Assembly (NCBI RefSeq): GCF_008638345.1
Contig: NZ_VTVA01000007.1
Location: 120,232 to 184,231, forward strand
Direction: 5' to 3'
Length of the DNA: 64,000 nt
Source of the DNA: Pseudomonas saliphila
GTDB lineage: Bacteria; Pseudomonadota; Gammaproteobacteria; Pseudomonadales; Pseudomonadaceae
Shown: positions 49,484-52,120 of the stretch, one piece after another
Position numbering within the stretch: the first letter of the stretch is position 1
Layout: each line of letters begins with the position of its first letter
Notes under the pieces: generated by a model
Told to the model about the DNA's origin: nothing
Databases searched by the model: none
What the model saw: only the letters and a program-made list of their open reading frames with translations
Position numbers and translations under genes: made by a program

Positions 49484-49552
49484 ACGCTTCTATACTGATA
49501 AACGTCCGGTGCGCACTGTGTCACCGAATTCTACGCTCAAGGAGTGACAACC

Positions 49553-51124
49553 TTGTCACCAACGCTCAGCCAGTATCTCGAATTTCTTGGTCAGTCGGCC
49601 CGCCGTGAGCAATTGCTCGGCTTCAAGCATGGTATCGAGAAAGAAAGCCTGCGCATCACTGAAGGGGGTGTGCTGGCGCAGACGCAGCATCCCACGGCGC
49701 TCGGCTCGGCGCTGACGCACCCGACGATCACTACGGACTACTCCGAAGCGCTGGTAGAACTGATCACGCCCGTGTGTACCAGCATTGAAGGCTTGTTTGA
49801 CAATCTGGACCGGATTCACCGTTTCACCTACAGCCAGCTAGGGGACGAGCGGTTATGGATCCAGTCCATGCCCTGTCTGCTGCCGGAGCGCGATCAGGAC
49901 ATTCCGATTGGCTGGTATGGCACCTCCAATATCGGCATGCTCAAACACGTTTACCGCCGCGGCCTGGCGATCCGTTATGGCAAGGCCATGCAGTGCATTG
50001 CCGGCATCCATTACAACTTCTCCCTGCCAGACAAGGTGTGGCAGTTGTTGCAGCAGCACGATGGTGACCAGCGCTCGGCGCAGGACTATCAGTCTGCGCG
50101 GTATATGGCGACGATTCGCAATTTCCGCCGCTATGCCTGGTTGCTGATGTATCTCTTTGGTGCGTCGCCGGCGGTATGCGCGAGCTTCCTGCAGGGGCGC
50201 GATCACAAGCTGCAGCGGCTGGGGGAGAAGAGTCTGTACCTGCCGTACGCGACCAGCCTGCGGATGAGCGATCTGGGCTATAACAACAATGCCCAGTCCG
50301 GCCTGAACATCTGCTATAACGGGCTCGATCAGTACATTCAGAGCATGCAGCAAGCCATCAGCATGCCCTACGCGCCGTACGCCGAAATGGGCACCCACGA
50401 TGCGCAGGGCAACTGGCAGCAGCTCAATACCAATCTGTTGCAAATCGAGAACGAGTTCTACAGCCCGATCCGGCCCAAGCGGGTCACGCGCAGCGGGGAA
50501 AAGCCCGTGCACGCGCTGGCGTCACGCGGAGTGGAATATATCGAAGTGCGCTGTATGGATATCGACCCCTTTGCCCCGCTCGGTGTCGAGCCTGCCACCG
50601 CGCGGTTTCTTGACAGCTTCCTGTTGTATTGCGCGCTGGAGGACAGCCCGGAATTCGAGCCTGACGAATGTGAGGAAACGGGCGTGAACTTTGACCTGGC
50701 GGTCAAGCGCGGTCGGGAGCCAGGCTTGAGCCTCCATCAGAACGGAACGGATATTGCCCTCAAGGATTGGGGGTTGAGCCTGCTCGATGACATCGCTGCC
50801 TGCGCACAGCTGCTCGATCAGACGAATGCGACCGCCGATTTCAGTGACAGCCTGAAGCAGCAGCGTGACAAGCTGCACAACCCGGACCTGACGCCGTCTG
50901 CACGGGTGCTCACAGAAATAGAGCGCCACGGCAACAGCTTCTTCCGTTTCGCTCTGGCGCAATCGGAAGCGCACCGCGAGTATTTCATGGCGCGGCCGCT
51001 GGATGCCGAGAGCATGGATGCGTTTCGCCGTCAGGCGGAGGCATCCCTGACCGAGCAGGCCGCAATGGAAGCGGCGGATGATGTGGATTTTGACACTTTC
51101 GTTAGGACCTACCTGAGCCAGTAA
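49553..51124 (+). CDS. gshA: Glutamate-cysteine ligase
   Basis: First enzyme of glutathione synthesis, class I (proteobacterial) type, 523 residues. I place the start at TTG 49553 because AAGGAG (49539-49544) lies eight bases upstream; a GTG at 49544 overlaps that site. Motifs are GFKHGIEKESLRIT near residue 25, DYSEALVELITP, GYNNNAQSGLNICYN, QIENEFYSPIRPKR and VEYIEVRCMDIDPF. The GshB partner is at 30.8 kb. Confidence 0.94.
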   Translation: MSPTLSQYLEFLGQSARREQLLGFKHGIEKESLRITEGGVLAQTQHPTALGSALTHPTITTDYSEALVELITPVCTSIEGLFDNLDRIHRFTYSQLGDERLWIQSMPCLLPERDQDIPIGWYGTSNIGMLKHVYRRGLAIRYGKAMQCIAGIHYNFSLPDKVWQLLQQHDGDQRSAQDYQSARYMATIRNFRRYAWLLMYLFGASPAVCASFLQGRDHKLQRLGEKSLYLPYATSLRMSDLGYNNNAQSGLNICYNGLDQYIQSMQQAISMPYAPYAEMGTHDAQGNWQQLNTNLLQIENEFYSPIRPKRVTRSGEKPVHALASRGVEYIEVRCMDIDPFAPLGVEPATARFLDSFLLYCALEDSPEFEPDECEETGVNFDLAVKRGREPGLSLHQNGTDIALKDWGLSLLDDIAACAQLLDQTNATADFSDSLKQQRDKLHNPDLTPSARVLTEIERHGNSFFRFALAQSEAHREYFMARPLDAESMDAFRRQAEASLTEQAAMEAADDVDFDTFVRTYLSQ

Positions 51125-51265
51125 CGTCGGCTAGCCAGCCTTCTCAATGGCGGAGCCTGTCCTGAAATGGCGGGCTCGCGCTGCCCCTAAGTAGACGAGT
51201 CCGGTTCTGGTGACAGTCCGAGGTCAGCTGCCGCGAGGGACAGGGCCGCGCCGACACGCTGCAAG

Positions 51266-51303
51266 TACATCCCTGTAAGCTCGTCGATGACATCCCTGTG
51301 ATC
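51266..51303 (+). repeat. Double-hairpin repeat, copy 1
   Basis: Two adjacent hairpins share a TCCC centre: TACATCCCTGTA (51266-51277) and GATGACATCCCTGTGATC (51286-51303). They are joined by AGCTCGTC. The same architecture occurs in reverse orientation at 51441-51479. Confidence 0.65.
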
Positions 51304-51410
51304 GCAGGGTCGGCTCAGCCCTGTCGCCTGGCTTCGTATGAACATTTTAGTTTCCGGAAGGCACAACCCAAACGGGTTTATTTCTCTGCATCACGCCGAT
51401 GCTCGATCAA

Positions 51411-51516
51411 GCTCGCCGGCTGTCAGGGTGGCGCAAGTGTCGAAAACAGGGATGTTTTCGTCAAGCCCCCATGGATGGGTTCACCGCGTCTTGCGCCACC
51501 CTGACAGCCGGTGGGC
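51411..51516. repeat. MITE-like element with 27-bp inverted arms around a double hairpin
   Basis: The left arm (51411-51437) and right arm (51490-51516) are inverted repeats matching at 25 of 27 bases; the core of the arm is GGCTGTCAGGGTGGCGCAAG. The 52-base centre contains CGAAAACA-GGGA-TGTTTTCG (51441-51460, eight-bp stem) and CCCATGGATGGG (51468-51479), which is a second, reversed copy of the double hairpin found 140 bases away. No coding frame is credible. The element has the size and form of a non-autonomous transposable repeat, but no target duplication is evident. Confidence 0.75.
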
Positions 51517-51551
51517 GACTGACGCGCGATATTAGATGCGGCACTTCCAGC

Positions 51552-51956
51552 TCACTGCGTAATGAGATTATTGAACAGCAGATCCGTGACCAGCGGCTGG
51601 CCTTCCTCTTCTTCCAGCACCTGCTGGACCGCTTGCAGTGCTTCGCTGCGCAGCTGCTCCTTGCCTTCCAGTCCGGCCAGCGCGTCCGGGGTCTGGCGGG
51701 CAAAGAGCGTGACCAGGGTGTTGCGTATCAGTGGGTCGTGATATTCGATACGTGACACCGCCGCGTTGTCGCTGGCACGTAGCGCCACGTCGACCTTCAG
51801 GTATTGCAGGCGGGGGCCGGGGCCGATGGTGCCTATGAACGAGGGCTTCAAATCCACATAGGGGGAGGCGGCAGGCGTTTCAGTCGCCGCCTGGGCCGGT
51901 AGCGCCACGCTACATGTCAGTGCCAATGCCAGCAATGCCTTCTGCAATCCTTTCAC
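51552..51956 (-). CDS. FliL-like secreted protein
   Basis: Protein of 134 residues starting at GTG 51956, with GGAG eight bases upstream. Residues 1-23 look like a cleavable signal peptide (ending AQA). The rest has a FliL-type domain: PSFIGTIGPGPRLQYLKVDVAL, SRIEYHDPLIRNTLVTLFARQT, and a C-terminal helix with QPLVTDLLFNNLITQ. True FliL keeps an N-terminal membrane anchor and sits in a flagellar operon; here neither is the case. It may be a periplasmic relative of unknown role. Confidence 0.75.
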   Translation of the reverse strand: MKGLQKALLALALTCSVALPAQAATETPAASPYVDLKPSFIGTIGPGPRLQYLKVDVALRASDNAAVSRIEYHDPLIRNTLVTLFARQTPDALAGLEGKEQLRSEALQAVQQVLEEEEGQPLVTDLLFNNLITQ

Positions 51957-52120
51957 TTCAACTACTCCGCTGGGTTTGATACAGCATATCCGAGCGTGGC
52001 AGCAGCGCCAAACCATTATGCCCGCCGGTCTTATGCATGCTGATCAACCACAGACATGGTAATTGACCAGGGTGCCGTCGAAGCCGCTAGACTGTTGAAA
52101 AACCGCACAGGGGAGATGTC

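Follow-up and report, generated by a model that had tools for sequence, protein, structure and literature searches.

The repeat analysed here, in a 64-kb stretch of Pseudomonas saliphila DNA (the window), is a YPAL-like dispersed repeat of two inverted, structured modules, and lies between two genes that converge on it. Many gammaproteobacterial genomes contain the module, its ANGGAN loops and the bases at its junctions are conserved while its stems covary, and the loops match the published CsrA/RsmA site. The best joint explanation of these observations, to which we would give an even chance on sequence grounds, is that the YPAL-like repeat may act as a mobile RNA clamp for RsmA dimers.

Architecture and history of the repeat at the window site

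The composite repeat consists of two inverted modules of ~103 nt each and is ~300 bp long in total (Table 1). Its ends (~51221 and ~51520) are approximate, having been placed by eye in an alignment of 13 copies, and the relatives with an empty site are too diverged to place them or to read off a target duplication.

Table 1. Features of the composite repeat and its neighbours (window positions).
Feature	Positions	Strand	Basis
Entire composite repeat of YPAL-like type (both modules and the spacer)	51221..51520	.	alignment of 13 own-genome copies with flanks; 12 further full-length copies at 78-87% identity
Left module (outer stem, hairpin 1, hairpin 2; GGA sense on minus)	51230..51332	-	match to covariance model R1 (87.3 bits)
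Right module (GGA sense on plus)	51411..51516	+	25/27 arm pairs; R1 match 51414-51515, 100.4 bits; fold z -9.4
Left module, hairpin 1 loop CAGGGATG (ANGGAN hexaloop and closing pair)	51291..51298	-	sequence; R1 alignment
Left module, hairpin 2 loop CAGGGATG	51268..51275	-	sequence; R1 alignment
Right module, hairpin 1 loop CAGGGATG	51447..51454	+	R1 alignment; fold
Right module, hairpin 2 loop CATGGATG	51470..51477	+	R1 alignment; fold
Less conserved spacer separating the two divergent modules	51333..51410	.	13-copy alignment
Gene to the left, for glutamate-cysteine ligase, pointing towards the repeat	49544..51124	+	TIGR01434, 665 bits, over cut-off
Gene to the right, FliL-like, pointing towards the repeat	51552..52016	-	FliL models below cut-offs; best 76.8 of 179 bits

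A sequence-only reading of the same DNA had described a 106-bp MITE-like element with 27-bp inverted arms, enclosing one of two double hairpins in opposite orientation. Both of its structural observations were borne out: 51411-51437 pairs with 51490-51516 at 25 of 27 positions (93%) with 52 nt in between, and the two double hairpins do face in opposite directions, with their facing loops ~148 bp apart (near the 140 given in that reading). What did not survive is the interpretation of the arms as terminal inverted repeats, as they belong to the outer stem of the right module, and conservation in the 13 full-length copies runs well past them. Since the left copy has an outer stem of its own (51230-51332), which that reading had missed, the repeat contains two complete modules, and since homology among the 13 copies extends over ~51221-51520, the 106-bp element makes up the right half of it, the whole being ~300 bp long.

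That the 106-bp unit is itself a MITE, with the 27-bp arms as its transposon ends, is therefore very improbable. The pairing of the arms (25/27) would suit such an element, as would the fact that the module rides in MITEs elsewhere, but the homology among the 13 own copies reaches far beyond the arms, and the arms differ by locus while the core stays the same, which is the reverse of a MITE. On these two observations classical MITE ends were ruled out. The description "MITE-like" thus fails for the window copy, whose arms are not transposon ends. Elsewhere the module does sit inside miniature elements with inverted ends of their own (in genomes G526 and G313), recently mobile ones in G526.

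A search of the window with R1, a covariance model of the module, gave two matches, which are the two modules (100.4 and 87.3 bits). As RNA, the right module (51411-51516) folds at -74.5 kcal/mol (z -9.4, with 0 of 200 shuffles as good). The left module, whose loops read CATCCCTG on the plus strand, has a fold z of -3.1; its two hairpins are absent from the minimum-energy fold, and hairpin 1 of this copy is damaged by one mismatch.

The repeat is present at three of the 30 congeneric loci, the own locus included (G000, G020 and G023). At 19 of the 30 the same convergent genes lie 7-56 bp apart and the repeat is absent, so that the empty sites for which the sequence-only reading had proposed to look do exist in relatives; the gap at these sites often contains a short palindrome (by eye). 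At a further 8 of the 30 loci the downstream gene was not found, and there was no module within 1.5 kb. The simplest reading is that the repeat reached this site before the three species split. Many other copies occupy positions common to the three genomes, and the number of tandem units differs. The orthologous repeat of P. profundi M5 (L088) contains an N, and part of its right module is doubled, which probably reflects an assembly join inside the repeat.

Distribution and mobility of the module

A search of the P. saliphila genome with 51240-51540 returned 40 matches at E ≤ 0.001 (including the query itself as well as partial and self-inverted pieces), of which 13 are near full length, again including the query, the other 12 being 78-87% identical to it. 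Three full-length copies stand in tandem on contig C12, ~365 bp apart. R1 found 49 modules in this genome at E ≤ 0.001, among them one partial match and a weak one. The suspicion that this is a dispersed repeat family, and that the hairpin pair by itself is a repeated unit, was therefore correct, as the module of two hairpins recurs genome-wide.

Counting the own genome each time, R1 had matches at three levels: in the order in 99 of 244 genomes (55 of 113 genera), in the class in 55 of 274 (49 of 222 genera) and in the phylum in 17 of 299; all 17 belong to the Gammaproteobacteria, a figure to be weighed against the share of this class among the 299. Because only 13-16 candidates were scored per genome, under strict filters, the copy numbers at these three levels are lower bounds. 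Within the genus (37 genomes), and among the matches listed, full-length copies at >75% identity occur in at least G000, G020 and G023, G014 has one full-length copy at 70%, and most other genomes with a match have single modules. The exact 23-base pattern of loop 1 is found in 26 stretches of the named collection, 22 of them in the congener P. profundi M5 (G023) and 4 in Marinobacter. In plasmid and phage records the right module had no blastn match at E ≤ 1e-3. One 2.0-Mb genome (G347, 88% complete; loci L309-L335) holds 45 modules, and csrA was not found in it.

Modules less than 450 bp apart are mostly divergent (15 of 21 pairs in other genomes, and 35 of 56 in P. saliphila, G020 and G023), which fits a repeat that is read from both strands, and also fits a DNA element.

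The modules would seem to travel either as miniature mobile elements themselves or within such elements. Six copies found at different loci of G526 share 97-100% identity over ~120-165 bp, and most of these, together with four further copies, lie inside an element with inverted ends finishing in TATA. In G313, three copies are 98.6-99.0% identical over 209 bp and lie in an element with ends quite unlike those of G526. In both cases the module is internal, and the elements carry their own, different inverted ends.

The arms of the module behave differently from genome to genome. In G361 they are always 31 bp long, and their two sides change together (25-30 of 31 paired). In G516 (L249-L257, L276-L297) they are mostly 31-49 bp long, with 814 of 833 cells Watson-Crick across 24 modules, and are mostly unrelated between loci (some are related) around one shared core; in fact, most listed copies have only a core of ~62 bp in common with the queried copy. 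The flanks of the G516 copy with 49-bp arms are only 73-77% identical to those of its one congener. That the G516 arms differ at many loci and are yet almost perfectly paired is a puzzle.

Three further loci deserve mention. At L204:411-1603 (G137), a gene for a 294-aa DUF4357 protein (with also a GIY-YIG match, below cut-off) has on either side a module, the two being divergent and alike in their arms; this is possibly a gene-carrying form of the element, in this one case. A second, unrelated-looking dispersed repeat of ~155 bp (L256:465-619, G516) lies beside the module there and has several other matches in the genome, and a tandem array with a period of ~197 bp (L233:1218-2083, G526) lies a few kb from a module.

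Kinship with known repeats and RNAs

The core of the module matches closely the printed sequence of the Yersinia repeat YPAL/RU-2 (PMC2759123, Table 1b), which has a hairpin with a CANGGATG loop, GAGCCTA, a second CANGGATG hairpin and TATTTACGGCGT, with an outer stem around them; on this ground the element is called YPAL-like, and the suggestion that it might be a wholly new kind of element has to be given up. In the description of YPAL in PMC2229807 the inverted repeats are internal, insertion duplicates 3-26 bp of the target, the target lies at or beside a dyad symmetry, and both empty and filled sites occur. The window repeat resembles it in its internal inverted repeats, in its filled and empty sites, and in the location of such sites at or near dyad symmetry. 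Like YPAL, which has no TA termini, it has internal arms, and no TA-ended terminal repeat is visible (by eye) in the 13-copy alignment. However, YPAL is ~168 (or 130) bp long with one core, whereas the window copy has ~300 bp and two inverted cores, and because of this difference in length and core number it is filed as YPAL-like and not as YPAL. Repeats of the window type also differ from YPAL in forming tandem arrays at some loci, in having arms unrelated to those of YPAL and in occurring in other genera.

Among structured RNAs, the model of Ysr224 (Rfam RF02770), an sRNA of Y. pseudotuberculosis listed as temperature-responsive, aligns over its full length with a module (in L256 of G516, 47 bits), but it does so with the opposite (TCC) strand. 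The window copy scored 17.9 bits against its gathering cut-off of 70 bits, and none of the seven genomes tested exceeded that cut-off. CsrB and RsmX/Y/Z have in common with the module paired hairpins with GGA in an ANGGAN loop, but these are single sRNA genes, whereas here a dispersed multi-copy repeat in gene gaps is concerned, with putative RsmA binding. TwoAYGGAY RNA (RF01731), which was proposed to bind CsrA on motif grounds (PMC4333381), likewise has an outer stem and two hairpins with GGA loops; no match to its model was listed in three Rfam scans (E up to 5, 10 or 1). Rfam scans listed no Rsm/Csr family, and nothing scored above a cut-off in the stretches tested.

REP/REPIN sequences and BIMEs are also inverted hairpin pairs in gene gaps. 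REPs are defined as palindromes of 20-40 bp that end on one side in a GTAG or CGTC tag (PMC3733652). The module differs from these repeats in its size of ~100 nt and its two inner hairpins. A REP/REPIN with a linked RAYT was rejected, as the five Y1-transposase loci of the P. saliphila genome (~3 kb each) contain no module. The same search, restricted to the Y1 family, bears on the transposase with matching ends that the sequence-only reading had envisaged: none was found.

Conserved loops, the selected strand and the RsmA/CsrA reading

The module follows one plan: an outer stem, a short linker (often CGT/TGT), hairpin 1, a second linker with AGC at its end, hairpin 2, a stretch close to TTYACRGCGT and the closing arm. 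In 38 modules less than 80% identical to each other (alignment A1), 87.8% of 1201 stem cells are paired, compared to 56.6% when shuffled and at most 48.0% when slid; both sides have changed in 386 of the 1201 cells, and the covariation score is 0.757 versus 0.208. These modules, from which R1 was built, were chosen by loop pattern (as were the 154 modules used for the spacing count), which makes the invariance of loop letters and loop-closing pairs in that set circular. Loop conservation was therefore taken from R1 matches, where ANGGAN fits the two loops in 107 and 103 of 109 modules of P. saliphila, G020 and G023 (A3) and in 103 and 107 of 109 modules of other genomes (A4), although the R1 scores also reward the loop and these numbers are thus not wholly free of bias. 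The two sets were obtained from 115 and 122 matches by dropping duplicates and rows outside 86-114 nt. The loop positions that vary freely are the two N of ANGGAN, and the bases at the junctions (AGC, GCG) vary as little as the loops. The C-G pair closing the loop is not strictly invariant, as four copies in G347 have T-A at loop 2. The spacer between the loops is 14 or 15 nt in 148 of the 154 pattern-found modules (loops 22-23 nt apart, start to start).

The location of the modules was counted with crude longest-ORF gene calls on 143 modules (51 of which were left out: 47 inside ORFs and 4 with an unclear neighbour), which gave 38 modules in convergent and 6 in divergent gaps and no orientation bias relative to co-directional genes (21 along versus 27 against); here and in the strand counts the group labelled G516 also takes in loci of its congener G550. 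The avoidance of divergent gaps would be in line with a YPAL-like 3' hairpin that merely stabilises convergent 3'UTRs (through mRNA protection or termination), its loops being kept for folding or by descent, with no role for RsmA. The strong fold of the right module (z -9.4) points the same way, and YPAL is described as expressed together with upstream genes, with a possible effect on transcript stability (PMC2229807). Nevertheless, we consider this unlikely, since the stems vary freely while the loop A and GGA are fixed and the N positions vary, and plain stability needs none of that.

Which strand is under selection can be read from the mismatches in the stems. In 99 modules there are 86 G-T versus 18 A-C mismatches in the GGA sense, with a scoring that treats both alike and with modules whose arms are less than 75% alike; per module, 47 have more G-T, 6 have more A-C and 46 are ties (p 6e-9). 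Leaving out G516/G550 gives 78 versus 10, the own genus 44 versus 9 (20 modules versus 2), and the other genera alone 37 versus 1 (25 modules versus 0). G516 alone (24 modules) has 8 of each and thus no strand bias. A double-stranded role predicts equality, so the excess of G-T means that a single strand, either RNA or ssDNA, is under selection.

This result fits ssDNA as well as RNA, and the double hairpin might accordingly be an ssDNA recognition signal for a transposase (of the HUH/Y1 type, as for REP or IS200/IS605), in which case structure and loops would serve mobility and not RNA binding. Recently mobile copies exist, there is no orientation bias to genes, and the junction bases are as invariant as the loops, all of which such a signal would accommodate. 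On the other hand, modules are absent from all five Y1 loci of the P. saliphila genome, the loop, invariant but for two free positions, coincides exactly with the CsrA site, and the modules in G526 and G313 are internal to elements with other inverted ends. We therefore regard a transposase signal, too, as improbable, at a level similar to that of the plain 3' hairpin.

The RsmA/CsrA reading starts from the published site. In SELEX the consensus for CsrA was RUACARGGAUGU; the loop used in RsmE complexes is an ANGGAN hexaloop, and a single CsrA dimer bridges sites 10-63 nt apart, best at >18 (all PMC7652899); the Rsm motif has also been given as CANGGANG (PMC6849547). The module has hairpin pairs with ANGGAN loops at a spacing inside the range of 10-63 nt, and the P. 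saliphila genome has one CsrA gene. The module would act as RNA in the GGA sense, and because the two modules are inverted, a transcript entering from either neighbour would carry one GGA-sense module. One RsmA/CsrA dimer would then clamp both loops, 23 nt apart, which would either titrate RsmA (as a scattered sponge) or alter the stability of the host 3'UTR.

Co-occurrence does not discriminate here, as csrA was hit in 51 of 55 module-bearing genomes and in 184 of 219 others. The four without a hit are G286, G347, G378 and G473 (completeness 75, 88, 67 and 98%), in which the loops still fit ANGGAN (30/31 and 29/31). Several observations speak against the RsmA/CsrA reading: the modules lack an orientation bias to co-directional genes, the opposite (TCC) strand is the sense of Rfam's Ysr224, four module-bearing genomes gave no csrA hit and yet keep their loops, G516 alone shows no excess of G-T, CsrA does not account for the invariant AGC and GCG junction bases, the strand selection suits ssDNA equally, and hairpin 1 in the left module of the window copy is damaged. 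In the literature, no paper tying ACAGGGATGT-type repeats, Marinobacter palindromes or MITEs, or YPAL to CsrA was found among the matches listed (the best 12 of 1,225 for CsrA with MITE or GGA motif).

A wider proposal, which we put forward as tentative and as less probable than the clamp itself, is that across the Gammaproteobacteria a clamp for RsmA/CsrA, complete with both of its sites, may be distributed by miniature mobile repeats. Genomes rich in modules (49 in P. saliphila, 45 in G347) would then contain a scattered sponge readable from both strands that rewires Csr/Rsm with each insertion, and YPAL would be the only named branch of this superfamily, its proposed effects on transcripts running via CsrA.

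The close likeness of the two small hairpins to the docking sites of RsmA/CsrA hints that scattered decoys for this regulator may be present in many bacteria. The analysis brings orphan repeats from many genera of the Gammaproteobacteria together under a single named family, YPAL, for which RsmA/CsrA becomes a candidate partner that can be tested. If the RsmA/CsrA reading is true, a global regulator obtains binding sites from mobile repeats, and there is a mechanism for the proposed effect of YPAL on transcripts.
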